Assembly (NCBI RefSeq): GCF_038446665.1
Contig: NZ_CP151802.1
Span: forward strand, 3,844,001 to 3,908,000
DNA length: 64,000 nt
Direction of reading: 5' to 3'
Origin: Lysobacter sp. FW306-1B-D06B
GTDB taxonomy: Bacteria > Pseudomonadota > Gammaproteobacteria > Xanthomonadales > Xanthomonadaceae
Shown: positions 4,444 through 24,034 of the stretch, piece by piece
Position numbering within the stretch: position 1 is the first letter of the stretch
Layout of the letters: each line of letters opens with the position of its first letter
Notes under the pieces: model-generated
Database searches by the model: none
Told to the model about the DNA's origin: nothing
Seen by the model: only the letters and a program-made list of their open reading frames with translations
Translations under genes and position numbers: made by a program

Positions 4444-5253
4444 GTGAACACCGCGCACGGCGATGCGCCGCCGCGCATCGTGCTCGACACGAATGTCTGC
4501 CTGGACCTGTTCGTGTTCGGCGATCCCGCGGTGTCGGTACTGCGCGATGCGCTTTCCTCCGGCGATGTCGTCGCGGTGAGCAGCGCGGCGTGTCGCGAAG
4601 AATGGGAACGCGTGCTGTCGTACCCGGCGCTGCGGCTGGACGAAGCGGCGCGTGCGTCCCGGCTCGCGGCCTACGACTCGGCGATGGCGAGCGTGTTTGG
4701 CGTCGTGCAGGTTACGCGACCCCTGCCGCGATGCCGCGACGCGGACGATCAGAAATTCATCGAGCTGGCGGCCGCCGCCTCGGCGCGCTGGCTGCTGTCG
4801 CGCGATGACGAACTGCTGCGTCTGGCGAAGCGGACAAGGCGCGAGGGGTTGTTCGAGATCCTTGCGCCCGGGAATGGGTCGGAGCGTGGGCGGGTCGCTG
4901 ACGGATACGCTCGCGCTCATGCTGTCATGACAGAAGGCTGGGGCTCTTGGGCCGCCGAACGGCGGCACTATCCAGGCCTGCGCGGCATCATGCTCGACAC
5001 AGGCTTTCGTTTCGGCAAGTTGGATCCCCGCCTTCGCGGGGATGACGGCATCGCGTCGGAACCTTCGAGGACCTGGGTCCCGGCCTTCGCCGGGATGACG
5101 GCGTTGCACGCGCAATGCAGGACACTGCGCGATGCGAGGCTATCCACACCCCGCCCCATCACAACTCGAAGCGATAACTCAACTTCACCAGCAGCTGCTC
5201 GTCGTCGCGCAGGTCGAAGCTGTCGCGCACCAGGTCGCTCGCGCTTTCCGTGA
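4444..5253 (+). CDS. PIN-domain putative RNase with a repeat-encoded C-terminal extension
   Basis: Residues 10-141 form a PIN domain of the COG1569 type: IVLDTNVCLDLF (Asp15), an EEWE stretch (about 52-55), DADDQKFIELA (Asp101/102) and LLSRDDELLRLA (Asp121/122) supply the acidic metal-binding set of a metal-dependent RNase. The GTG start lies one base after the upstream lipoprotein stop. The usual family length is about 140 residues, but the frame stays open for another 128 codons. This tail is the in-frame translation of dispersed repeat DNA (residues 192-202 KLDPRLRGDDG and 211-219 WVPAFAGMT), and its last 95 bases run antisense into the 3' end of the DUF5916 gene. No antitoxin gene is adjacent, so a toxin role is not supported. 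The PIN call is solid; the true C-terminus is doubtful. Confidence 0.72.
   Translation: MNTAHGDAPPRIVLDTNVCLDLFVFGDPAVSVLRDALSSGDVVAVSSAACREEWERVLSYPALRLDEAARASRLAAYDSAMASVFGVVQVTRPLPRCRDADDQKFIELAAAASARWLLSRDDELLRLAKRTRREGLFEILAPGNGSERGRVADGYARAHAVMTEGWGSWAAERRHYPGLRGIMLDTGFRFGKLDPRLRGDDGIASEPSRTWVPAFAGMTALHAQCRTLRDARLSTPRPITTRSDNSTSPAAARRRAGRSCRAPGRSRFP
4947..5100. repeat. CCCGCCTTCGCGGG-family repeat, copy A (inside the PIN reading frame)
   Basis: Contains a GCCGCC-GAAC-GGCGGC hairpin (4951-4966) and two copies of the dispersed hairpin unit with core CCCCGCCTTCGCGGGG (5022-5047) or CCCGGCCTTCGCCGGG (5075-5100), each followed by ATGACG. The first 34 bases are identical to 8587-8620. Confidence 0.85.
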
Positions 5254-11590: not shown

Positions 11591-12355
<765 letters not shown>

Positions 12356-12356
12356 C

Positions 12357-13655
12357 ATGAGCGCCTTGCTCGACTCCTTCGCGACTGCCTTCGATTCGCT
12401 CGCCGCGCGCGATGCCGCCGGCCTGGGCGCCAGCCGCCGCGCCGCGCTCGATGCCGTCCTGCGTGACGGAATTCCGCACGCGCGGGTGGAAGCGTGGAAA
12501 TACACGCCGCTGCGCTCGCTGGAACGCCGTGCGTTCGTAGTGGCGCCGGCAGGCATTCCGACGTTCGATGACGCATTGCTGGCGGCGATTCCCGGCCCGC
12601 GCATGGTCTTCGTCAACGGCCGCTTCGACGCCGCGCACAGCGATCTTTCCGGCTTGCCTGCCGGTGTGACGCTTCAGCCGCTCTCGCGCGTGCTGATCGA
12701 AGGCGAGCCGCGTGAAGCGAACTTCCTCGCCCGCCGCTTCGACCGCGCCGACGAAATCTTCGCGCGCCTCAACGCCGCACTCGCCGATGACGGCGTCGTG
12801 CTGCGCGCTCACGCGAACGCGCGGATGGATACGCCGATCCACCTCGTCTTCATCGGCGCTCCGGCGCAGGCCGACGAGGCCTGGCACCTGCGCCATCTGA
12901 TCGAGCTGCGCGACGGTGCGTCGCTGGCCGTCGTCGAGCATCACATCGCAACGGATGCGCACCAGCACCTCGCCAACAGCCTGATGCATGTCCACCTGGG
13001 CACGAACGCGGTGCTGCGTCACGCACGCGTCCAGGACGAAGGCGCCGGCGCGACGCTGATGGCACGCAGCGACGCCGTGCTCGCCAAGGATGCGGCCTAC
13101 CATCGGCTCGACCTCGAGCTCGGTGCGGGCCTGTCGCGCCATGAGCTCAACGCCGCGCTGCACGGCAACGGCGCACGCCTGCACGCCAACGGTGTGCTGC
13201 TCGCGTCCGGCAAGCGTCACCTCGACACGCGGCTGGGCATCGACCACGTCGGTCGCGACACGGCATGCGACCTCACTTGGCGCGGCATGGCGGCGGGCCG
13301 CTCCAAGGCGGCCTTCCACGGCGGCATCCTGATCCGCGAAGGCGCCGACGGCACCGCCGCGAACCTGTCGAACAAGAACCTGCTGCTCAGCGAAGGCGCC
13401 GAGATCGACAGCCAGCCCGTGCTGGAGATCCACGCCGACGAAGTGCAGGCCGCGCACGGCGCCACCGTCGGCCAGCTCGATACGACCGCGCTGTTCTACC
13501 TGCGCAGCCGCGGGTTGCCGGCCGAACAGGCGCGCTCGCTGCTGACCGCAGCCTTCTGCCGCGAAACGCTGGCCGTGTTCGCACCGGGCGACGCCCTGCG
13601 CGCCGCACTGGAAGCCCGCCTCGACACCGCGCTGGCCCGACTGGGCACCGTCTGA
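12357..13655 (+). CDS. sufD: SUF complex subunit SufD
   Basis: A 432-residue SufD. It has a variable N-terminal helical part and the conserved VEAWKYTPLRSLERRAF block. The C-terminal beta-helix holds RRLGID-like repeats (HLDTRLGIDHVGRDTACDL, GGILIREGADGTAANLSNKNLLLSEGAEIDSQPVLEIHADEVQAAHGATVGQLD) and the terminal LRSRGLPAEQARSLLTAAF. SufD pairs with SufB and is needed for iron entry into the scaffold. The ATG at 12357 lies one base after the sufC stop; an in-frame ATG at 12348 would overlap sufC and is less likely. sufS follows 11 bp downstream. Confidence 0.95.
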   Translation: MSALLDSFATAFDSLAARDAAGLGASRRAALDAVLRDGIPHARVEAWKYTPLRSLERRAFVVAPAGIPTFDDALLAAIPGPRMVFVNGRFDAAHSDLSGLPAGVTLQPLSRVLIEGEPREANFLARRFDRADEIFARLNAALADDGVVLRAHANARMDTPIHLVFIGAPAQADEAWHLRHLIELRDGASLAVVEHHIATDAHQHLANSLMHVHLGTNAVLRHARVQDEGAGATLMARSDAVLAKDAAYHRLDLELGAGLSRHELNAALHGNGARLHANGVLLASGKRHLDTRLGIDHVGRDTACDLTWRGMAAGRSKAAFHGGILIREGADGTAANLSNKNLLLSEGAEIDSQPVLEIHADEVQAAHGATVGQLDTTALFYLRSRGLPAEQARSLLTAAFCRETLAVFAPGDALRAALEARLDTALARLGTV

Positions 13656-13666
13656 CTGGAGCACGC

Positions 13667-14911
13667 ATGAACCTGCCCGCCGCCGAATCCGCGTCCGCCA
13701 TCGACTGGGCCCGCGTCCGCGCGGATTTCCCGCTGCTCACGCGCCAGGTCCACGGCAAGCCGCTGATCTACTTCGACTCGGCCAATACCGGACAGAAGCC
13801 CGAAAGCGTGATCGAAGCGGTCGATGACTTCTATCGCCGCCACAACGCCAACGTCAGCCGCGCGGTGCATGCGCTGGGCACCGAAGCGACCGAAGCCTAC
13901 GAGGGCGCGCGCACGAAGCTGGCGAAGTTCCTCAACGTGCGCGGCGACGAACTCGTGCTGTGCAGCGGCACCACGTTCGCGCTGAATCTCGTCGCCTACT
14001 CGTGGGCACTGCCGCGCCTGCAGCCGGGCGATGCGATCGTGCTCACGCGGATGGAGCACCACGCCAACATCGTGCCGTGGCAGTTGGTCGCACAACGCAC
14101 GGGCGCGACGATCAAGGTCGCGGAGATCGACGAGCGCGGCGAACTGGATCTTGCGCAGCTGTATTCGCTGCTCACTCCGGAAGTGAAACTGCTCTCGCTC
14201 ACGCACGTGTCGAACGTGCTGGGCACGGTGAATCCCGTTCGCGAGATCTGCCGCGAGGCCCGCAAGCGCGGCATCGTCACCGCCATCGACGGCTCACAGG
14301 CCGCGCCGCATCGCGCGCTCGACATCGCGTCCATCGGCTGCGACTTCTATGCCGTCACCGGGCACAAGATGTCCGGCCCCACCGGCACCGGCGCGCTGTG
14401 GGCACGCCGCGAGCATCTGGCCGCGATGCCGCCCTTCATCGGCGGCGGCGAGATGATCAAGGAAGTGCGCTTCGAGGGCACGGTATTCAACGACCCGCCG
14501 CATAAGTTCGAGGCCGGCACGCCGAACATCGCCGGCTTCGTCGGACTCGGCGCCGCGGTCGACTATCTCTCGACGCTGGGCATGCACAACGTCGAGACGC
14601 GCGAGCAGGAATTGCTGGCCCACTTCAACGAAGCGGTTTCTTCCGTCGAGGGCCTACGCATCTTCGGCCAGGCGCGCGAGAAGGCCGCGGTGGTGAGCTT
14701 TCTGATCGAGGGCGCGCACGCGCACGACCTGGCGACACTGCTCGACCTGGAGGGCGTGGCGATCCGTTCCGGCCACCATTGCGCGCATCCGCTGATGCAG
14801 CATTTCGGCGTGCCGGCGACATGCCGCGCGTCCCTCGCCTTCTACAACACACACGAAGAAATCGAAGCCTTCGTTACCGCCCTGCGCAAGGTGCGTAAAC
14901 TGCTCGCATGA
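13667..14911 (+). CDS. sufS: Cysteine desulfurase SufS
   Basis: A 414-residue group II cysteine desulfurase that uses PLP to take sulfur from cysteine as an enzyme persulfide for SufB. IYFDSANTGQKPESVIEAV near the start, TRMEHHANIVPWQ, the PLP lysine in VTGHKMSGPTGTG, and the catalytic loop RSGHHCAHP with Cys372 are all present. The ATG at 13667 follows a GGAG 11 bp after sufD. No SufE or SufU sulfur acceptor is encoded in the operon; SufE would have to be elsewhere. The stop overlaps the next start (ATGA). Confidence 0.96.
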   Translation: MNLPAAESASAIDWARVRADFPLLTRQVHGKPLIYFDSANTGQKPESVIEAVDDFYRRHNANVSRAVHALGTEATEAYEGARTKLAKFLNVRGDELVLCSGTTFALNLVAYSWALPRLQPGDAIVLTRMEHHANIVPWQLVAQRTGATIKVAEIDERGELDLAQLYSLLTPEVKLLSLTHVSNVLGTVNPVREICREARKRGIVTAIDGSQAAPHRALDIASIGCDFYAVTGHKMSGPTGTGALWARREHLAAMPPFIGGGEMIKEVRFEGTVFNDPPHKFEAGTPNIAGFVGLGAAVDYLSTLGMHNVETREQELLAHFNEAVSSVEGLRIFGQAREKAAVVSFLIEGAHAHDLATLLDLEGVAIRSGHHCAHPLMQHFGVPATCRASLAFYNTHEEIEAFVTALRKVRKLLA

Positions 14912-15462
14912 ACACCACTGTCGATACGCCGGCACGGCCCGGCCTGAAATTCCGCAACGCCACACATGCCGACATCGATGCGCTGGTCGCGCTCGTGGAA
15001 TCGGCCTACCGTGGCGACGTGAGCAAGCAGGGCTGGACGACCGAGGCGGACATGCTCGGCGGCCGCCGTACCGGCCCGGACGATATCCAGGCGTGCATCG
15101 ATCGTCCGCGCAGCGTCATCCTGATCGCCGAGCGTGCGGATGCAGAGCTGATCGCCTGCGCACATGTAGCCGAGGAGAACGGCGCGGGCTACTTCGGCAT
15201 GTTCTCCGTGTCGCCCACGCAGCAGGGCGGCGGCATCGGCAAGCAGGTCATCACCGAGGCCGAGCGCCTGGTTCGCGAAGACTGGTCGTTGCCGGCGATG
15301 CGCATGACCGTCATCGACATCCGTGACGAGCTCATCGCGTTCTACGAGCGCCGTGGCTATCGCCGCACCGGCATCAAGAAGCCCTTTCCGTACGGCGACG
15401 AGCGCTTCGGCGTTCCCAAGCGCGACGACCTGCGTTTCGAGGTGCTGGAGAAGTCGCTGTGA
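14908..15462 (+). CDS. GNAT family acetyltransferase in the suf operon
   Basis: A 184-residue GNAT fold: LKFRNATHADIDALVALVESAYRG at the start, the central strand YFGMFSVSPTQQGGGIGKQVI (acetyl-CoA pyrophosphate loop, Q-x-x-G-G-G-I-G form), and IAFYERRGYRRTG near the end. It probably N-acetylates a small molecule or a protein; the target is unknown. It overlaps sufS by 4 bases and the Rieske gene by 4 bases, which ties it firmly to Fe-S assembly in expression. No suf-related role for a GNAT is established that I know of, so any role there is inference. Confidence 0.88.
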   Translation: MNTTVDTPARPGLKFRNATHADIDALVALVESAYRGDVSKQGWTTEADMLGGRRTGPDDIQACIDRPRSVILIAERADAELIACAHVAEENGAGYFGMFSVSPTQQGGGIGKQVITEAERLVREDWSLPAMRMTVIDIRDELIAFYERRGYRRTGIKKPFPYGDERFGVPKRDDLRFEVLEKSL

Positions 15463-15785
15463 GCGACAACTGGGTCTTCGTCTGCGCCACATCGCAACTG
15501 CTCCCTGGTGAGCGCACCGTGGCCTGGGACGGCGATACACCGATCCTCGTCGTCAACTACGACGGCGATTACTACGCGCTCGAGGACAAGTGCTCGCACG
15601 AGGACTTCGAGTTGTCCGCCGGCAATTACGACGGCGACGAGGCCACGATCGAATGCGTCCTGCACGGAGCGAAGTTCGACGTGCGCGATGGGCGCGCACT
15701 TTGCGCGCCCGCTTACGAGCCCGTGCTGAAGTTTCCGGTGAAGGTCGACGACGTCGGGATCTGGACGCGGGACGATCGCGGCTGA
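15459..15785 (+). CDS. Rieske [2Fe-2S] ferredoxin
   Basis: A 108-residue Rieske ferredoxin. The cluster ligands are Cys45-x-His47 (DKCSHEDF) and Cys66-x-x-His69 (ECVLHGAKFD), and the flanking VRDG and PAYEPVLKFPVKV strands fit the non-heme-oxygenase ferredoxin group. The GTG start overlaps the GNAT stop (GTGA). No oxygenase gene lies nearby. As the last gene of the suf operon it may donate electrons for cluster assembly or serve as a client, which is inference. Cytoplasmic, with no signal sequence. Confidence 0.92.
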   Translation: MSDNWVFVCATSQLLPGERTVAWDGDTPILVVNYDGDYYALEDKCSHEDFELSAGNYDGDEATIECVLHGAKFDVRDGRALCAPAYEPVLKFPVKVDDVGIWTRDDRG

Positions 15786-16151
15786 TCCATAGCCCTGCCA
15801 CGCAGGGTTGAATCTGCTCCGGCCCGATGGGCCAGGCCCGTTGTCTTCCTGTGCCGCGCACGCGGCCCCTGGCGGAATGGCGCAACCAGGCACCGGGCCG
15901 GATTGCGCGACGCGCCCGCGCCAAGGCGGAGCGACTTCTTCTTTCGATCACGGCCCTCCGCGGGCGCGTGCGCCTTCGTTTTCTCCTTGTTTCATGGGCT
16001 GTGCCATGCCGGTCGGTTCCGGCCGGTGAGGCGCTTTGAAGGTGCCGCTCGTCCGGGCGCGTTCACTTTTCGTTGCAAATGAGAATCCCTCTCATTACCA
16101 TTCAACGCCGAACCGCGGCCGTGCCGCCTGACCTCTCCCCCAGGGATTCCC
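15786..16151 (+). other. 366-bp gene-free stretch ahead of the TonB receptor
   Basis: No convincing gene. Two short frames (about 70 codons) lack conserved sequence or a clear ribosome site. The only recognisable element is the promoter with a Fur box at 16073-16101. Confidence 0.6.
16073..16101 (+). promoter_or_regulatory. Promoter with a Fur box in its spacer
   Basis: TTGCAA (16073-16078), 17 bases, TACCAT (16096-16101). Inside lies AATGAGA (16078-16084), 5 bases, TCTCATT (16090-16096), a perfect 7-5-7 inverted repeat matching the 19-bp Fur box type. Iron-loaded Fur here would block RNA polymerase directly. Confidence 0.82.
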
Positions 16152-18494
16152 ATGCACAACAGGAAGTTCGTCGTCTCGCCGCTCACCGGCGCCCTTGCCC
16201 TCGCGATCGCCGCTCCCGTTCTGGCCGATCCGGCCGGCGAGGCTGCCGACGCGCGCAACCTGGACAAAATCGAAGTCCACGGCGAGTACGTCGAGAAGCC
16301 CTCTTCGGTGAAGTACACGCAGCCGCTGCTCGACACGCCGCAGACCATCACCGTGGTCACCCGTGACGTGATGGACCAGCAGAACCTGATCGGCCTACGC
16401 GACGTGCTCAGCACCCTGCCGGGCATCACCTTCGGCGCGGGCGAAGGCGGCGGCGGTTACGGCGACAGCATCACGCTGCGCGGCTTCAACGCCAACAGCG
16501 ACATCACCACCGACGGCGTTCGCGACAGCGCGCAATACACGCGCACCGACAACTTCAACCTGGACGCCGTCGAACTGATCAACGGCGCCAACTCGGTGTA
16601 CTCGGGCGCAGGCTCGGTGGGCGGCAACATCAACCTGGTCAGCAAGGTCGCACGCAGCGGCGACTTCACCGTGCTGCAGGCGGGTGCGGGCACCGACAGC
16701 TTCGGCCGCCTCACGGTGGACAGCAACACGGACCTGGACAACGGCACCGCCGTGCGCGTCAACGCGATGGTGCACCAGAACGACGCCCCGGGCCGCGACC
16801 GCGAGACCTTCGAGCGCTGGGGCTTCGCGCCGTCGGTCGCGTTCGGCCTGGACGAGGACACGCGCTTCACCGCCAGCTACTTCCACCAGAGCGACGACAA
16901 CATCCCGCAGTACGGCGTGCCGTTCTTCAGCGCGTTCGGCGGGCCGCTGCCGGGCGTGGATCCGAGCAACTACTACGGCTACCACAACGTCGACCGCCAG
17001 AAGATCGACATCGACATGGTGACCGGCGTGTTCGAGCACGACTTCAGCGAGAACACCACGCTGCGCAGCCTGGCGCGCTACCAGCAGGTCGAGCAGCTGA
17101 GCATTGTCAATCCGCCACAGGGCACGTGGTGCCTGGCGAATGGAACCAATCCGGCGGGCGGCGCCTGCTCGGTCACGGTCAACGGTGCGCTGGTCCGGGT
17201 TCCGCCGGACATGTACCAGCCAACGGGTCCGCGCGGCAACACGCGCGACACGCGCAACACCATCGCGATCAGCCAGACCGACCTGACCACGCGCTTCCAG
17301 ACCGGCTCGGTGAAGCACTCGCTGGTGACGGGCGTGTCGATCTCGCAGGAGAACTTCGACCTCGACACCGGCAACGTGCTGCGCACCGCCAACGGGACGA
17401 TCGTGCCGTTGCCGCTGATGTCGTTGCCCAACCCGGATTCGACCTACCTCGGGCCGATCAACTACATCCGCAGCAGCACGAGTGAAGGCAAGCTCGATAA
17501 CCAGGCCATCTACGTGTTCGACACGCTGGAGTTCAACGACCAGTGGATGTTGAACCTCGGCGCCCGCTACGAGCACAATGAAGGCGACACCGTTTCGTAC
17601 ACGTACAACACGACCGCCGGCAGCCCGCTGCTGGGCCGCCCCACGGCCGTGACCGTGGGCGAAAACAAGGACGATCTGTTCTCCTACCGCGCGGGCCTGG
17701 TCTTCAAGCCGGTCGAGAACGCCAGCCTGTATCTGTCGTACTCCGACAGCAAGACGCCGTCGAAGGCGTCGGTCAACGGCACGTGCACCCCGGTCAGTTC
17801 GACCACCGGCGCCACCGGCACGGCCAATTGCAATGTCGATCCGGAAACCGCGGTCAACATGGAATTCGGCGGCAAGTGGGACATCAACAACCGCCTGGCG
17901 CTGACCGGCGCGGTGTTCCGCAACGAGCGCGAGGACTACAAGGTCGCCGACCCGGGCAATCCGGACAATCCGACCGGCGAGCAGCAGCTGGACGGCAAGG
18001 CGCGCGTCGACGGTGTCACGCTCGGCGCGGCCGGGCGCCTCACCCATGACTGGTCGATCTTCGCCAACGTGACCTGGCTCGACAGCGAAGTGCTGCAGGG
18101 CGTGTCCGACTTCTGCCGCGCCCATCCGTCGACCGCCTGCGCCAACACGCCCGCCAATCCCGATCCGCTCAAGGGCCTGCCGATCACCGGCACGCCGGAG
18201 CGCTCGGGCAGCCTGTGGACCACGTACGACCTGCAGCAGTGGACCTTCGGCTACGGCGTGACGTACATGAGCAACTACGACGTCTACACCGGCAACGGTG
18301 CCAACATCGCCGAGGTGAAGGGCTTCACCACGCACCGTGCGATGGTCGGCTACGACATCAACGAGCGCTTCGCGCTGCAGCTCAATGTCAACAACCTGTT
18401 CGACAAGGAGTACTACACGCGCATCCGCAACAACGGCTGGGCGACGCCCGGCGATGCGCGCTCGGTGGTGCTGATGGCCACCTACAGGTTCTAA
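16152..18494 (+). CDS. TonB-dependent siderophore receptor, Fiu-like
   Basis: A 780-residue outer-membrane receptor. A signal peptide (ALALAIAAPVLA) is followed by a TonB-box-like stretch (NLDKIEVHG), the plug domain (LLDTPQTITVVTRDVMDQQN, then RDVLSTLPGITFGAGEGG and DSITLRGF), and a 22-strand barrel ending in VLMATYRF with the terminal Phe needed for assembly. The ITLRGFNANSDITTDGVRDSAQYTRTDNFNLDAVE region matches the catecholate (Fiu/PiuA) group. It imports ferric catechol-type siderophores with TonB energy. A Fur box sits in its promoter and a PiuC dioxygenase gene follows 63 bp downstream, the classical piuA-piuC pairing. Confidence 0.93.
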   Translation: MHNRKFVVSPLTGALALAIAAPVLADPAGEAADARNLDKIEVHGEYVEKPSSVKYTQPLLDTPQTITVVTRDVMDQQNLIGLRDVLSTLPGITFGAGEGGGGYGDSITLRGFNANSDITTDGVRDSAQYTRTDNFNLDAVELINGANSVYSGAGSVGGNINLVSKVARSGDFTVLQAGAGTDSFGRLTVDSNTDLDNGTAVRVNAMVHQNDAPGRDRETFERWGFAPSVAFGLDEDTRFTASYFHQSDDNIPQYGVPFFSAFGGPLPGVDPSNYYGYHNVDRQKIDIDMVTGVFEHDFSENTTLRSLARYQQVEQLSIVNPPQGTWCLANGTNPAGGACSVTVNGALVRVPPDMYQPTGPRGNTRDTRNTIAISQTDLTTRFQTGSVKHSLVTGVSISQENFDLDTGNVLRTANGTIVPLPLMSLPNPDSTYLGPINYIRSSTSEGKLDNQAIYVFDTLEFNDQWMLNLGARYEHNEGDTVSYTYNTTAGSPLLGRPTAVTVGENKDDLFSYRAGLVFKPVENASLYLSYSDSKTPSKASVNGTCTPVSSTTGATGTANCNVDPETAVNMEFGGKWDINNRLALTGAVFRNEREDYKVADPGNPDNPTGEQQLDGKARVDGVTLGAAGRLTHDWSIFANVTWLDSEVLQGVSDFCRAHPSTACANTPANPDPLKGLPITGTPERSGSLWTTYDLQQWTFGYGVTYMSNYDVYTGNGANIAEVKGFTTHRAMVGYDINERFALQLNVNNLFDKEYYTRIRNNGWATPGDARSVVLMATYRF

Positions 18495-18557
18495 TCACGC
18501 TTCACCCAGGCCACGCGACGCCCGGCCCCGCCGGGCGCTCGCATGAAGGAATGCCCG

Positions 18558-19244
18558 ATGCTGCTGCAGGTTCCGCAAGTCCTCACCGCCGAACAGGTGG
18601 CCCATTGCCGGGACCGCCTGCGGCAGGCCGGCTGGGCCGACGGCCGCATCACCGCCGGCCACCAGTCGGCGATGGCCAAGGACAACGCGCAGCTGCCGGA
18701 GAACGATCCGGTGGCGCGCGAGTTGGGCGGGCTGATCCTCGAGGCGCTGGCGCGCAACACCACGTTCTTCTCCGCGGCGCTGCCGCAGCGGATCTATCCG
18801 CCGCTGTTCAACCGTTACGGCGGCGGGCAGTCGTTCGGTTTCCACGTCGACAACGCGATCCGCTACGACCGCAGCCGCGGCGGTGCCGATCCCATCCGTA
18901 CCGATCTTTCGGCCACGCTGTTCCTCAGCGATCCGGACGATTACGACGGCGGCGAACTCATCATCGAGGACACCTACGGCGTGCAGCGCGTGAAGCTGGC
19001 GGCCGGCGACATGGTGCTCTACCCGGGCACTAGCCTGCACAAGGTCACGCCGGTCACGCGCGGCGAGCGCGTGGCGTCGTTCTTCTGGATCCAGAGCCTG
19101 CTGCGCGAGGATGCGCAACGTCGGCTGATGTTCGAGCTCGACGTCTCGATCCGCCGCCTGACCCAGGACGTGCCGGAGCATCCGTCGCTCGTGCAGCTCA
19201 CCGGCATCTACCACAACCTGCTGCGCCGCTGGGCCGAGCCCTGA
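18558..19244 (+). CDS. piuC: Fe(II)/2-oxoglutarate-dependent hydroxylase, PiuC/YbiX family
   Basis: A 228-residue prolyl-4-hydroxylase-like dioxygenase. The iron triad is His96-x-Asp98 (FGFHVDNA) and His161 (SLHKVTP), with Arg171 (TRGERVASF) for 2-oxoglutarate. [20 protein letters not shown] and YHNLLRRW are near-identical to the YbiX family. The start at 18558 follows GAAGGA; a slightly earlier ATG at 18543 lies inside that ribosome site. PiuC proteins accompany catecholate receptors and are co-induced by iron starvation, but their substrate is unknown. Confidence 0.93.
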
Positions 19245-19251
19245 GGCGCGC

Positions 19252-19896
19252 GTGGGTCCTTCTTCCGCACCGCAGGATCTGGTCGCGCAGCAGCAGCGCC
19301 GTGGCTTCTGGCTGCGCACGCTGCATTCCTGGCACTGGATCAGCTCCGCCATCTGCCTGATCGGCATGCTGCTGTTCGCCATCACCGGCATCACGTTGAA
19401 CCATTCGGCCGCGATCGAGGCGAAGCCGGACACGCTCACGCGCAAGGTCGAGATGCCGGCTTCGGTGTTGCGTGCGCTGGGCAAGCGTGAGGACGGCAAC
19501 GCGCCGCTGCCGGGCACGGTCAGCGACTGGCTCAACGACGTGCTGCCGGTGTCGATCGGCGCGCAGCCGGCGGAATGGTCGAGCGAGGAGATCTACCTGT
19601 CGCTGCCGCGTCCCGGCGGCGATGCATGGCTGAGCATCGACCGCGAAAGCGGCGCGGTGGAGTACGAGCGCACCAGGCGCGGCTGGATCGCCTACCTCAA
19701 CGACCTGCACAAAGGCCGCAACGCCGGTGCCGCGTGGCGCTGGTTCATCGACGTGTTCGCGCTGGCCTGCCTGGTGTTCTGCGTGACGGGCCTGTTCCTG
19801 TTGCAGATGCACGCGCGACAGCGGCGCATGACCTGGCCGTATGTCGCGCTCGGGCTCGCATTGCCGGTGTTGCTCGCCCTCCTCTTCATCCACTGA
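19252..19896 (+). CDS. PepSY-associated membrane protein
   Basis: A 214-residue inner-membrane protein with three hydrophobic segments: about 29-49 (ISSAICLIGMLLFAITGITL), 164-184 and 195-213. A periplasmic PepSY-like loop lies between the first two. Histidines at the membrane faces (His25, His28, His51, His153) could bind heme, as in PepSY_TM-type siderophore reductases, but this is inference. The GTG start lies 7 bp after piuC, so it is co-transcribed. The family includes proteins that help pass electrons to ferric siderophores in the periplasm, which fits the locus. Confidence 0.85.
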   Translation: MGPSSAPQDLVAQQQRRGFWLRTLHSWHWISSAICLIGMLLFAITGITLNHSAAIEAKPDTLTRKVEMPASVLRALGKREDGNAPLPGTVSDWLNDVLPVSIGAQPAEWSSEEIYLSLPRPGGDAWLSIDRESGAVEYERTRRGWIAYLNDLHKGRNAGAAWRWFIDVFALACLVFCVTGLFLLQMHARQRRMTWPYVALGLALPVLLALLFIH

Positions 19897-19927
19897 ACCT
19901 GCTTACTTTCAAAATAAGGGAGTTTCC

Positions 19928-20437
19928 ATGCGCGTCCAACTGACCATCGCGCTGAGCGGACTGCTCGCGTTGCCGGCCTACTCGGCCGAGATCGACGTCA
20001 ACGTGCAGATCCCCCAGCTCAACGTCGCCGAATACCACCGTCCGTACGTGGCGATCTGGGTCGAGGGCGCCGACCAGAAGGCCGCGGCCAACCTCGCCGT
20101 GTGGTACCAGCAGAAGGCCACCAACGAAGGCGCCGGCACCAAGTGGCTGCCCGACCTGCGCCAGTGGTGGCGCCGCAGCGGTCGCACGCTGAAGGTGCCG
20201 GTGGACGGCGTGACCGGTCCGACGCGCCCCGTCGGCACGCATGCGCTGAAGTTCGGCAGCCAGCATCCGGAGCTGGGCAAGCTCCCGCCCGGTGAGTACA
20301 CGCTGGTCGTGGAGGCCGCGCGCGAAGTCGGCGGCCGCGAGCTGCTGAAGATTCCCTTCACCTGGGGCGGCGCCAGCGCCGGCAAGGCGCAGGGCACGTC
20401 CGAACTCGGCCTGGTCACGCTGGCCAGCAAGCCCTGA
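19928..20437 (+). CDS. DUF2271 periplasmic protein with a possible flavinylation motif
   Basis: A 169-residue exported protein: signal peptide MRVQLTIALSGLLALPAYSA, then the DUF2271 domain (NVAEYHRPYVAIWVEGADQ, LPDLRQWWRRSGR, LPPGEYTLVVEAARE VGGREL). Residues 93-99 read DGVTGPT, close to the D-x-x-(S/T)-G-A-(S/T) motif where ApbE transferases attach FMN through a Thr or Ser phosphoester. An apbE gene lies three genes downstream in the same run. The start at 19928 has AAGGGAG upstream; an earlier in-frame ATG at 19841 overlaps the PepSY gene. If modified at Thr99, the protein would be a periplasmic one-electron carrier between the PepSY protein and ferric substrate (inference). Confidence 0.82.
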   Translation: MRVQLTIALSGLLALPAYSAEIDVNVQIPQLNVAEYHRPYVAIWVEGADQKAAANLAVWYQQKATNEGAGTKWLPDLRQWWRRSGRTLKVPVDGVTGPTRPVGTHALKFGSQHPELGKLPPGEYTLVVEAAREVGGRELLKIPFTWGGASAGKAQGTSELGLVTLASKP

Positions 20438-20443
20438 TCCCGC

Positions 20444-20543
20444 TGTCATCCCTGCGAAGGCGATCCAACTCGAAGACGCATCACGCCCGACGCGAGGCGT
20501 GAACTCGCGCAACGATGGATCCCCGCCTTCGCGGGAATGACGG
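20444..20543. repeat. CCCGCCTTCGCGGG-family repeat, copy C
   Basis: Left arm GTCATCCCTGCGAAGGCG (20444-20461) and right arm with CCCCGCCTTCGCGGG core (20516-20543), facing each other, between the DUF2271 and DUF4198 genes of the iron locus. Confidence 0.85.
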
Positions 20544-20583
20544 CAGAACGCGAACACACATCCACTTACGCAGGAGCATCGCA

Positions 20584-21396
20584 ATGAAGCCGACCCTGAA
20601 GCTCGCCGCGCTCGCGCTGGCCCTTTCCCTTCCCTTCGCCGCGCAGGCACACAAGGCGTGGCTGCAGCCGTCGCAGACGGTGCTGGCCGGCAACAATCCG
20701 TGGGTGACGGTGGACGCGGCCGTGTCCAACGACCTGTTCTACTTCAACCACGTCCCGCTGAAGACCGACAACCTCGCCATCACCGCGCCCGACGGCAGCA
20801 CCGTGACCGCGCAGAACGCCGCCACCGGCAAGTACCGCACGGTGTTCGACGTCGAGCTCAAGCAGACCGGCACGTACCGCATCGGCGTGGTCAACAACTA
20901 CGTCACCGGCAGCTGGGAAGACGCGAACGGCCAGACCAAGCGCTGGCGCGGCACCGAGGCGACCTTCGCCACCGAAGTGCCCAAGGACGCGAAGAAGCTG
21001 CAGGTCGGCCAGTCGGTGAGCCGTGTGGAAACCTTCGTCACCAGCGGCTCGCCGAACGAGACCGCGCTCAAGCCCAGCGGCGTGGGCCTGGAGCTGGTGC
21101 CGGTGACGCATCCCAACGACCTGTTCGCCGGTGAGGAAGCCAGGTTCCGCTTCCAGATCGACGGCAAGCCGGCGGCGAACCTGGATGTGGAAATCGTCCG
21201 CGGCAACACGCGCTATCGCAACGCGCAGGACGAGCTGAAGGTGAAGACGGATGCCAAGGGCGAGTTCGTCGTGACCTGGCCGGAAGCCGGCATGTACTGG
21301 CTCGAAGCGAATTCCGAAGACAACAAGACCACGGTCAAGCAGGCCAAGCAGCGCCGCCTGGGCTATGTCGCCACGCTGGAAGTGCTGCCGCAGTAA
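20584..21396 (+). CDS. DUF4198 periplasmic protein
   Basis: A 270-residue exported protein: signal peptide [17 protein letters not shown], then [28 protein letters not shown], the start typical of DUF4198, with a His right after the cleavage site that could bind metal. Two beta-sandwich parts follow ([31 protein letters not shown] and the closing [12 protein letters not shown]). The ATG at 20584 has CAGGAG upstream; the in-frame ATG at 20515 lies in the repeat. DUF4198 proteins often sit with TonB receptors and metal transport genes. Here it is probably a metal-binding or electron-transfer partner, with no proven function. Confidence 0.85.
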
Positions 21397-21413
21397 CGAA
21401 GACGCAACACGCA

Positions 21414-22409
21414 GTGGCCACGCACGCATCCGCAACGCAGCCCGTCCCGCGCGCCGTCGACATCCTCGGCGGTGCGACGATGGGCACGACCTGGTCGGTG
21501 AAACTCGCCGCGCCTCGCAACGCCGACCTGCATGCCCTGCACGCGGGCATCCAGTCGCGTCTGGACGACGTGGTCGCGCAGATGAGCAACTGGGAGGCCG
21601 GCTCGGACCTGAGCCGGTACAACGCGTCGGACGCGGGCTCGTGGCACGCGCTGCGCGATGACTTCTGGACGGTGCTGTCGTGCGCGCTCGACATCGCACA
21701 CGCCAGCGGCGGCGCGTTCGACCCGACCGTGGGGTCGCTGGTGGACGGATGGGGCTTCGGCCCGCCCAGCGCGGGCGCGGGCGCGGGCGCGTCCGCGTTC
21801 GCGTTCTCGCCCGAAGCCGCACGCGCCCACGTGCAGTGGCGGCGCGTGATCCTGGATCCGGCGCAGCGCCGGGCGTTGCAACCGGGCGGCACACGGCTGG
21901 ACCTGTGCGCGATAGCCAAGGGTTTCGGCGTGGACGCCGTGGCCGCCCATCTGCGCGCGCAGGGCATCGACGCGGCGCTGATCGAAGTCGGCGGCGAACT
22001 CTACGGCTACGGCCGCAAGCCCGACGGCGCGCCATGGCGGGTGATCGTGGCAGGCTGGTCCGGCGACGAGGACGATGCGAACGAAGCGCGCGTGCTGGCG
22101 CTGGATGGCCTGGCGGTCGCGACGTCGGGCGATCGTTGGCACCGACGCGAGCACGAAGGCCGCGCGATCAGCCACACACTCGACCCGCGCAGCGGGCATC
22201 CGGTCGTGGATGCGCCGGCCGCGGTCACCGTCGTCGCCGCCGATGCGATGCGGGCCGACGCCTGGGCGACGGCGCTCACGGTGCTCGGCATGCACGATGG
22301 CTTCGACGCTGCATGCGCGAACGGGCTCGCGGCACGCTTCGTGGACACGCGCGGCGACGCCGTGACCGAACGCATGACACCTGCCTTCGAAACCCTGTTG
22401 CACGCATGA
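21414..22409 (+). CDS. apbE: FAD:protein FMN transferase ApbE
   Basis: A 331-residue ApbE. ILGGATMGTTWSVKLAA at the start, QMSNWEAGSDLSRYNAS, DPTVGSLVDGWGFG, LDLCAIAKGFGVDAVAAHL, EVGGELYGYGRKPDG and SHTLDPRSGHPV (Mg/FAD loop) are all present. ApbE uses FAD to attach FMN to Thr/Ser of periplasmic redox proteins. No classical N-terminal lipobox is visible from the GTG start at 21414, and the N-terminus is short, so it may stay cytoplasmic or use another start. It overlaps the reductase gene by 4 bases. The nearest candidate target is the DUF2271 protein. Confidence 0.93.
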   Translation: MATHASATQPVPRAVDILGGATMGTTWSVKLAAPRNADLHALHAGIQSRLDDVVAQMSNWEAGSDLSRYNASDAGSWHALRDDFWTVLSCALDIAHASGGAFDPTVGSLVDGWGFGPPSAGAGAGASAFAFSPEAARAHVQWRRVILDPAQRRALQPGGTRLDLCAIAKGFGVDAVAAHLRAQGIDAALIEVGGELYGYGRKPDGAPWRVIVAGWSGDEDDANEARVLALDGLAVATSGDRWHRREHEGRAISHTLDPRSGHPVVDAPAAVTVVAADAMRADAWATALTVLGMHDGFDAACANGLAARFVDTRGDAVTERMTPAFETLLHA

Positions 22410-24034
22410 ACACCGATTCTTCACTGAAGACCTGGCTCGGCAACGGCTTCGTGCTGGCGATGCTGCTCGCCTTCGTGCTCGTCTTCGGGCGCTGGCAGTC
22501 GGGGCCGTGGTGGATCGCTTCGCCGCGCGCGGGGAGCTGGGTGCTGGCGACGCTGGTGGTGCTCGCCTTCCTCGGCCTGTGCACGGCCACATGGCTGCGC
22601 GTGCGCGAGGAACGCGCCGCCGCGCGCGTCGACCCGGGCAGCGGCGAGGATGCGCTGCTCCTCGCGTGGGCGAGCCAGACCGGATTCGGGCAGCAGCTCG
22701 CCGAACACACGGCGCAGGCGCTGCGCGGCGCCGGGATGGACGTGCGCCTGCTGCCGCTGCATCGCATCGATGCCACCGTGCTGCAGACGCATCGGCGCGC
22801 GCTCTTCATCGCCAGCACGACGGGCGAAGGCGATCCGCCGGACCATGCGCTTGGATTCACCCGGCACGTGCTCGGCCAGTCGATGGCATTGGCCGGGCTG
22901 GAGTATGCGGTGCTCGCACTGGGCGATCGCGCCTACGACCGCTTCTGCGGTTTCGGTCGGCGACTGGACCAGTGGCTGCACCACAACGGCGCGCAGCCGT
23001 TGTTCGATCGCATCGACGTCGACGCCGGCGACGCGGGCGCGCTGCGCCACTGGCAGCATCGCCTGGGGCAGCTCGCCGGCCATGCGGAGCTGGCCGACTG
23101 GAGCGCACCCGAATACCGCCCGTGGCGCCTGCTGGAACGCCAGTGGCTCAACCCCGGCAGCCTCGGCGGGCCCGCGTATTACCTCGCCCTGGTGCCGGCG
23201 GATGCGCGCGATCTGACGTGGCAGGCGGGCGACATCGCGGAGATCGGGCCGTGCCATGCGCCGGCCGATGTCATGGCGTGGCTGCTTGCGTCCGGCCAGG
23301 ATGGAACGGCGGACATCGAGCGCGACGGCGACACGCTGGAGCTTGCGACGCTGCTGCAGCACTCGCGTCTGCCGGAACCGGCGAGCGTGCGGGGTCAGTC
23401 CGCGCAGACCGTGGCCGACGGCTTGCAGGCGTTGCCGCATCGCGAGTATTCGATCGCCTCGCTGCCCGCCGACGGCAGCCTCCAGTTGCTGGTCCGCCAG
23501 ATGCGCCATCCCGACGGCCGCCTGGGCAGCGGAAGCGGCTGGCTCACCGCGCACGCGGACGTCGGAATGCGTATCGACCTGCGCATCCGCCGCAACGCGG
23601 CTTTCCATCCGCCGCAGGACGACCGGCCGATGGTGCTCATCGGCAACGGCACGGGCCTGGCGGGCCTGCGTGCGCACCTGAAGGCGCGTGCTGCTGCGGG
23701 CCATCATCGCAACTGGCTGGTGTTCGGCGAACGTCAGCGCGCGCACGACTTCCATCATCGTGACGAGATCGAAGGCTGGCTGCGCGACGGCCATCTGCAG
23801 CACCTGGACCTCGCCTTCTCCCGCGATGGTGCCCAACGCACCTACGTGCAGGACCGTCTGCACGAACAGTCCGCGCGCCTGCGCGAATGGATCGCCGACG
23901 GCGCGGCGGTCTACGTCTGCGGCAGCCTGGAAGGCATGGCGCCGGCGGTCGATGCCGTGCTGCGCGAGACGGTCGGCCTGGATGCGCTGGAAGCCATGGC
24001 CGCCGAGGGCCGCTACTGCCGCGACGTCTACTGA
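22406..24034 (+). CDS. Membrane-anchored flavodoxin/FNR reductase (sulfite reductase flavoprotein-like)
   Basis: A 542-residue protein with two N-terminal transmembrane helices (about 9-27 and 42-59), a flavodoxin domain (LLAWASQTGFGQQLAEHTA for FMN phosphate; STTGEGDPPDHA), and a ferredoxin-NADP reductase module with an FAD motif REYSIAS and an NADPH motif LIGNGTGLAGLRAHL, ending in GRYCRDVY. The build resembles CysJ with a membrane anchor. Located at the end of the iron locus and overlapping apbE (ATGA), it most likely feeds NADPH electrons from the cytoplasm to the PepSY and DUF2271 proteins for ferric-siderophore reduction (inference). CysJ in this window (30830-32710) is a paralogue. Confidence 0.88.
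   Translation: MNTDSSLKTWLGNGFVLAMLLAFVLVFGRWQSGPWWIASPRAGSWVLATLVVLAFLGLCTATWLRVREERAAARVDPGSGEDALLLAWASQTGFGQQLAEHTAQALRGAGMDVRLLPLHRIDATVLQTHRRALFIASTTGEGDPPDHALGFTRHVLGQSMALAGLEYAVLALGDRAYDRFCGFGRRLDQWLHHNGAQPLFDRIDVDAGDAGALRHWQHRLGQLAGHAELADWSAPEYRPWRLLERQWLNPGSLGGPAYYLALVPADARDLTWQAGDIAEIGPCHAPADVMAWLLASGQDGTADIERDGDTLELATLLQHSRLPEPASVRGQSAQTVADGLQALPHREYSIASLPADGSLQLLVRQMRHPDGRLGSGSGWLTAHADVGMRIDLRIRRNAAFHPPQDDRPMVLIGNGTGLAGLRAHLKARAAAGHHRNWLVFGERQRAHDFHHRDEIEGWLRDGHLQHLDLAFSRDGAQRTYVQDRLHEQSARLREWIADGAAVYVCGSLEGMAPAVDAVLRETVGLDALEAMAAEGRYCRDVY

Follow-up and report, generated by a model that had tools for sequence, protein, structure and literature searches.

We analyzed a window of 64,000 nucleotides (nt) from Lysobacter sp. 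FW306-1B-D06B (contig NZ_CP151802.1, positions 3,844,001 to 3,908,000; the genome is one contig of 4.24 Mb), in which seven genes on the plus strand, at 16152-24034, encode a siderophore receptor, a PiuC-type dioxygenase, a PepSY membrane protein, DUF2271, DUF4198, ApbE and a flavodoxin/FNR reductase. The locus is a real iron-reduction operon of an ordinary kind, already proposed in print. What is new is a change at the flavinylation step that extends over a whole clade: ApbE, the FAD:protein FMN transferase, lacks an export signal, and DUF2271 carries DGVTGPT at its acceptor site. Extracytosolic flavinylation is generally tied to an exported ApbE and an [ST]GA[ST] site, and this large, named clade appears to depart from both.

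In the alignment of 125 loci, the acceptor site DGV[ST]GAT of DUF2271 (19928..20437; PF10029, 166.7 bits) reads DGVTGPT in the window, at residues 93-99 (D93 to T99, codons 20204..20224, plus strand), and the [S/T]GA[S/T] sequence of the PepSY-like flavinylation clusters is absent from it. A GGAS close to the C-terminal end of the protein was considered as the flavin site and rejected, given the position of the site in the alignment. In the structure model of DUF2271, confidence is low around the motif (block means 54-66), which is compatible with an exposed site but does not prove one. ApbE (21414..22409; PF02424, 237.9 bits) starts with a GTG at 21414, 22 residues before the Met of the first conserved motif, and has no hydrophobic stretch there; by a hydropathy rule, used for all ApbE signal calls in place of SignalP, it possesses neither a signal peptide, a lipobox nor a transmembrane-like N-terminus. 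A hidden upstream start that would supply a signal peptide was rejected after scanning in-frame ATG, GTG and TTG codons up to 70 codons upstream. DUF2271 and DUF4198, on the other side, have plain Sec-type signals as judged by eye.

The distribution of both traits was followed in two surveys. Within the bacterial family, 76 of the 149 genomes have a DUF2271 (PF10029) match. Of 398 genomes sampled across the phylum, 65 have DUF2271 above its cut-off, as do 5 of 185 sampled across the class. From the places above that cut-off, the first survey retrieved 80 of 82 in the family and 60 of 61 outside it, giving 140 loci, 16 of which were without DUF2271 by the profile used and were excluded from the motif counts. 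The second took the best 80 of 572 confirmed loci from one scan of named genomes and is therefore biased to near relatives; since the surveys overlap, their 116 GPT loci correspond to 100 distinct DUF2271 sequences. Under our first signal rule, the 125 loci of the first survey, window included, fall into several groups. Where ApbE is separate, 13 loci with an intact motif have a signal and 21 have none, against 2 and 58, respectively, of those with an altered motif. The rest comprise nine ApbE-DUF2271 fusions, all altered, one unclassed ApbE, and 21 loci with no ApbE by profile (12 altered, 9 intact). This rule left two clear lipoproteins (L270, L284) just below its threshold and a third locus (L271) on it, and the refined rule, applied to both surveys, scanned start codons over the same 70-codon upstream range. 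With it, a signal-like ApbE N-terminus was found at 0 of 110 GPT, 22 of 52 GAT and 2 of 8 other loci; three of the 113 GPT loci with ApbE were unclassed (L185, L190, L252). Stricter thresholds lower the GAT count to 19 and 18, three of the 22 being doubtful at the loosest one (L144, L145, L183), and the GPT count is 0 at every threshold. Where an altered motif stands beside a signal-bearing ApbE it is SAAT (L128, L130), and the Asp, Gly and acceptor Thr of the motif are retained in the GPT loci. In the second survey GPT occurs at all loci of Stenotrophomonas (13/13), Xanthomonas (12/12), Pseudoxanthomonas (17/17) and Luteimonas (4/4). The seven Lysobacter-named loci are divided, with GPT in four (soli, arvi, prati and xinjiangensis) and GAT in three (chinensis, niastensis and sp. 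cf310).

Two further arrangements appeared in these surveys. A second DUF2271 type, scoring about 108-126 bits, is found at L135, L137, L138, L140, L141 and L191-L202; ApbE is matched at 15 of these 17 loci, and none of the rows listed shows a signal-like N-terminus. In the two that were opened (L135, L138) the motif is DGVSGAS or DGITGAS, and DUF2271 is followed by a protein of 740-742 amino acids that appears by eye to be a PepSY-reductase fusion. The nine ApbE-DUF2271 fusions (L134, L136, L139, L142, L143, L186, L187, L189 and L190), most with DUF4198 nearby, have an aligned acceptor motif of RPT in seven cases; the other two read RET and GPT.

A FastTree phylogeny of 92 loci, built with the motif columns removed and containing some long branches, groups 49 loci in one clade with a local support of 100, in which all motifs are GPT and all ApbE proteins are without signal. 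The minimum number of changes on this tree is seven for the motif and four for the signal, and since an independent-pairs test of their association was not significant, we attribute it mostly to a single evolutionary event; repeated co-evolution of motif and signal was rejected on the same ground. It is thus quite possible that the two traits co-occur by shared descent, with no functional link. Loci with an intact motif are also frequently signal-less (21 of 34 by the first rule, 30 of 52 by the second), as this explanation would have it, but a signal-less ApbE also accompanies every other proline variant in this phylogeny (L148, L152, L163, L174 and L177).

ApbE itself seems to be a working enzyme. 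The columns K169, H254, D282 and T286, which we take to be of the catalytic type, are kept in 55 of 55 GPT rows of the first survey. Its ratio of nonsynonymous to synonymous substitution rates (dN/dS) against four relatives is 0.13-0.19, compared with 0.07-0.21 for its neighbors in the locus, and its sequence is thus under purifying selection. With these residues kept and this selection acting, ApbE presumably still acts on some substrate. A profile search of its own genome found no second ApbE and no FMN_bind protein, so both ideas were rejected. [ST]GA[ST] is absent from the PepSY, PiuC, DUF4198 and reductase proteins of the locus, and the single TGAT of the receptor lacks the Asp that belongs to the motif. 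Among 50 GPT genomes of the family, window included, a hand tally gives one PF02424 match in 40, two in nine and none in one; in four of the nine, the second match is an ApbE-DUF2271 fusion locus (L136, L139, L142, L143). Thus, the locus ApbE of the clade, usually the only one of its genome, looks cytosolic, and its expected substrate has a changed site.

We propose, tentatively and just short of calling it probable, that ApbE attaches FMN to Thr99 of the DUF2271 precursor before Sec export; because ApbE has no export signal, this step would be cytosolic. That DUF2271 is free of flavin seems doubtful, and that ApbE has another job, unlikely. For the Xanthomonadaceae/Lysobacteraceae, and separately for other lineages, we lean slightly toward the broader statement that either a cytosolic ApbE flavinylates an exported D-x-x-[ST]-G-P-T protein before Sec passage, or the flavin has been lost and iron receives its electrons straight from heme. 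Each of these, if true, would be a novel way of organizing flavin chemistry outside the cytosol; in the first, a covalent flavin would cross the Sec channel on its carrier. The questions made testable are whether ApbE accepts GPT, whether the flavinylated protein can travel through Sec, and whether a flavin on DUF2271 is required for iron reduction in the first place. Surveys that filter ApbE by signal peptide could miss such loci.

The loss of flavin deserves to be spelled out, since part of the evidence given above agrees with it. In that case, which we judge rather unlikely, the PepSY hemes would reduce the chelate, as proposed for FoxB, the DUF2271 of the clade would be a flavin-free docking or substrate protein, and ApbE would serve another cytosolic substrate. 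The change from Ala to Pro in the acceptor motif, the absence of signal-like ApbE from the 110 GPT loci and the single ApbE of 40 of the 50 genomes are what one would expect. Nevertheless, ApbE is retained in the operon under purifying selection, the Asp, Gly and Thr stay fixed, and replacing the motif Ala of another substrate by Val, which is less drastic, about halved flavinylation according to a review of ApbE. Two named GPT-type loci (L209, L212) have no local ApbE and would also favor the loss of flavin, but each of these genomes has one lipoprotein ApbE elsewhere, for which reason they were rejected as a natural experiment. The genome G274, with GPT and no ApbE match, was left unused because it is a draft of 330 contigs with a broken-looking locus. 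Nor does motif loss clearly track the absence of ApbE, an idea that was rejected: the motif is altered at 12 of the 21 loci without ApbE and at 60 of the 94 with a separate, classed one.

Improbable, in our view, is that ApbE is a cytosolic FAD hydrolase or modifies a cytosolic flavoprotein, for example as a source of FMN for the flavodoxin domain when iron is limiting. The lack of a signal-like N-terminus, of an FMN_bind match in the genome and of [ST]GA[ST] in the four locus proteins named above is compatible with it, and the Ftp enzyme of Treponema is reported to be an FAD hydrolase. However, the best solved-structure match of ApbE is an FMN transferase (5mgy), and ApbE follows DUF2271/DUF4198 in other classes too. 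In the literature index searched, nothing was found on an Ala-to-Pro motif variant or on a signal-less ApbE in PepSY clusters.

For the locus as a whole, we consider it probable that it is a Fur-controlled operon for ferric-siderophore uptake and reduction, working as follows. The receptor and PiuC would import and probably modify a ferric chelate, perhaps of the catechol type by analogy with Fiu/PiuA. Electrons from NADPH would pass to FAD and then FMN in the membrane-anchored flavodoxin/FNR protein, and the PepSY protein, with three transmembrane helices, would relay them through the membrane by way of two b hemes. Reduction of Fe(III) would take place in the periplasm, near PepSY/DUF2271, with or without a flavin on DUF2271. 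The resulting Fe(II) may be caught by the N-terminal His site of DUF4198 and enter by FeoB. ApbE would most likely serve DUF2271, as proposed above. This mechanism draws on the gene families and their order, the Fur-like site, the Fur-repressed five-gene order of Caulobacter and its fitness under ethylenediaminetetraacetate (EDTA). It also draws on the flavinylated DUF2271 of A. ursilacus, the PepSY histidines and confident model, and the likeness of the reductase to CysJ and P450 reductases. Further support comes from the first His of DUF4198, the metal site of IsDUF4198, the FeoB-like gene, the ApbE columns and dN/dS, and the kept Asp, Gly and Thr. It is worth noting that the earlier note on this DNA had described a full path for electrons from NADPH across the membrane to iron. 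The domains, the Fur-like site, the gene order and the work on relatives fit iron uptake and reduction with a route from NADPH to the periplasm, but with an altered acceptor motif and an ApbE lacking an export signal, two features that the note had missed, the full path is not supported.

The PepSY_TM_like_2 inner-membrane protein (19252..19896, 214 amino acids; PF16357, 282.5 bits) is a probable two-heme conduit, judging from its conserved histidines: His28, 51, 153 and 214 are kept in 93% or more of 114 rows, His25 in 79% and His187 in 83%. Its structure model is confident (pLDDT, the predicted local distance difference test, of 89) and has three predicted transmembrane helices; from helix order, His25/28 and His187 would be the inner histidines and His51/153 (and 214) the outer ones. 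Foldseek returned no match under E 0.001 for the PepSY and DUF2271 models, FoxB and C2-like sheets appeared only at background Z in the fold comparison, and a PDB sequence search with both proteins gave no useful result. DUF4198 (20584..21396; PF10670, 209.9 bits) probably starts at the ATG at 20584 and not at 20515. With the cleavage site placed by eye, its predicted mature N-terminus is His23, which, like His56 and His176 (mature positions 34 and 154), is kept in 93% or more of 121 rows. A profile search of the PDB with DUF4198 matched only 9mhi and 9mhk and did not recover 9GCB; the matching chains (E about 1e-7) are labeled phosphoribosylglycinamide formyltransferase, so that either the label or the link to the family looks odd. 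The reductase (22406..24034) resembles CysJ and cytochrome P450 reductases, its nearest PDB entries being CysJ and then the P450 reductases. It scores 84.7 bits for flavodoxin (PF00258) and 38.3 bits for NAD_binding_1 (PF00175), and has a two-transmembrane hairpin at its N-terminus by eye. A FeoB-like gene (185.5 bits) lies elsewhere in the genome.

The profile scores bear out the seven genes on one strand listed by the earlier note. The receptor (16152..18494, 780 amino acids, signal peptide by eye) exceeds the cut-off of the TonB-dependent siderophore receptor model TIGR01783 (244.1 against 223.5 bits) and stays under that of the Fiu equivalog NF007349 (390.1 against 686 bits); for this reason "Fiu-type", as it had been called, is only loosely apt, although a siderophore receptor it remains. 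PiuC, a PiuC/YbiX-type Fe(II)/2-oxoglutarate dioxygenase (18558..19244; NF003975, 368.4 bits, cut-off 180), probably starts at 18558, since the NCBIfam models begin at residue 6 of the listed open reading frame from 18543. Gaps of 7 nt between PiuC and PepSY, 146 nt between DUF2271 and DUF4198 and 17 nt between DUF4198 and ApbE, together with a single overlap of 4 nt (ATGA, 22406-22409) between ApbE and the reductase, indicate that "several overlapping starts" was an overstatement.

A Fur box had also been placed ahead of the receptor, and there the scan agrees. A predicted Fur-like operator at 16075..16099, the palindrome AATGAGA-N5-TCTCATT, comprises two overlapping sites that each agree with a 19-mer Fur consensus at 13 positions, and these are the only matches of at least 13/19 on either strand of the 64 kb. 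Five single-strand base shuffles gave 0, 1, 0, 0 and 0 such matches, and the best match in the five internal gaps of the locus examined is 9/19. In the second survey, a match of at least 12 lies upstream of 28 of 55 receptor genes (from 53 of the 80 named-genome loci), a count for which the chance level was not computed. A sigma-70 scan gave 0 sites, and a terminator scan no more than the shuffles did. That the PepSY/DUF4198 unit serves nickel or copper, with the receptor importing a metal chelate, is very improbable: IsDUF4198 binds Ni(II) and CciT/CciO affect copper resistance, but the Fur-like operator, the siderophore-receptor score and the Fur regulation and EDTA or iron phenotypes reported for relatives all speak for iron.

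The gap between DUF2271 and DUF4198 contains a REP-like inverted repeat (20442..20544). Its 21-mer CCCGCCTTCGCGGGAATGACG occurs, with up to three mismatches, in nine copies in the window against 0.03 expected, one at 20522-20542 and the others at 5027, 5080, 8561, 8669, 27558, 27638, 42958 and 63824; in this species, one copy and its inverted partner separate the two genes. On the 5' side of the locus (12348-15785) lie genes judged by eye to resemble SufD, SufS and an acetyltransferase, and then a Rieske-type ferredoxin, which was included in the profile scan, so that iron-sulfur genes adjoin the iron operon.

A genome search for kept gene order, suggested at the outset, found PepSY, DUF2271, DUF4198, ApbE and FNR in the same order and strand at 68 of 80 family loci and 16 of 60 non-family loci, an arrangement far beyond chance. 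These counts rank scored families only, and unscored genes may intervene. The trio PepSY-DUF2271-DUF4198 is present at 69 of 80 and 39 of 60 loci, respectively. PiuC is the next scored gene upstream of the five-gene block at 54 of 80 family loci and at 0 of 60 others, which indicates that a widespread core gained its receptor-PiuC head at the level of the family; non-family loci sometimes have the pair close by, downstream or on the opposite strand. The named best relatives of the proteins are from Lysobacter, such as L. auxotrophicus with 91% for DUF2271. A record titled Bacillus subtilis SK7B5 (L253) carries the whole operon in a form resembling the Xanthomonadaceae copies, and its assembly is perhaps mislabeled or contaminated.

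Several known systems share parts of this arrangement, and with the Caulobacter operon, the 2021 survey and the 2025 DUF4198 structure in print, the earlier claim of novelty, that the known pairing was only piuA-piuC, does not hold. Caulobacter crescentus CC_3059-3063 (transporter, DUF2271, DUF4198, ApbE and sulfite-reductase flavoprotein) has the last five genes of the Lysobacter locus in the same order and on one strand, and is derepressed by iron limitation and by loss of fur, as reported in PMC3751524. Insertions there (CCNA_03155-03159) lower fitness under EDTA (PMC12004947). The receptor and PiuC homologues of Caulobacter (cciT/cciO) lie elsewhere, whereas in Lysobacter both head the same-strand run; around CciT/CciO (PiuA/PiuC) genes, a PepSY gene is among the next-best neighbors, in less than 25% of genomes.

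The survey of Meheust et al. (eLife 2021, PMC8238504) describes 3220 PepSY-like clusters, of which 2833 include DUF2271, 1500 include DUF4198 and 231 include a TonB receptor, and proposes iron reduction. One DUF2271, from A. ursilacus, was flavinylated by its cognate ApbE, and this was lost when the motif threonine was replaced. With a PF16357 protein beside ApbE and DUF2271, the window locus belongs with these clusters, which are defined by a PF03929 or PF16357 neighbor, and shares PepSY, ApbE, DUF2271, DUF4198 and the proposed role in iron. It differs in lacking both the exported ApbE and the [ST]GA[ST] motif; the first step of that survey kept an ApbE or FMN-binding gene only if it had a signal peptide or lipidation site. 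What DUF2271 and DUF4198 do, said earlier to be unsettled, is less open than supposed, one being a proven ApbE substrate in one species and the other having a solved metal site. DUF4198/DUF2271 pairs are also reported near iron-responsive receptors in Alteromonas (PMC7190382).

The Fiu-YbiX and PiuA-PiuC systems have the same pair of receptor and 2-oxoglutarate-Fe(II) dioxygenase, but the Lysobacter receptor falls under the Fiu cut-off and the pair is joined to a reductase unit. P. aeruginosa PA4513 (piuB) is presumably a fused PepSY-reductase beside piuA. FoxB (7ABW) and HiuB, described as PepSY proteins with two heme sites that reduce siderophores (PMC11334425, PMC12424826), likewise have membrane histidines, while the Lysobacter protein has only 214 amino acids and three predicted helices and is accompanied by a separate NADPH reductase, DUF2271 and ApbE. 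IsDUF4198 (PDB 9GCB; PMC12537917, 2025), which binds Ni(II) at its N-terminal His with a dissociation constant of 18 nM, is secreted and has His as its first mature residue, as predicted for Lysobacter DUF4198; its second ligand is His18, whereas the conserved histidines of the Lysobacter protein are at mature positions 34 and 154. Finally, the cytosolic ApbE of Klebsiella pneumoniae has no signal peptide, like that of Lysobacter, and modifies a soluble fumarate reductase (PMC12052999), whereas the only candidate substrate within the Lysobacter locus is an exported protein.

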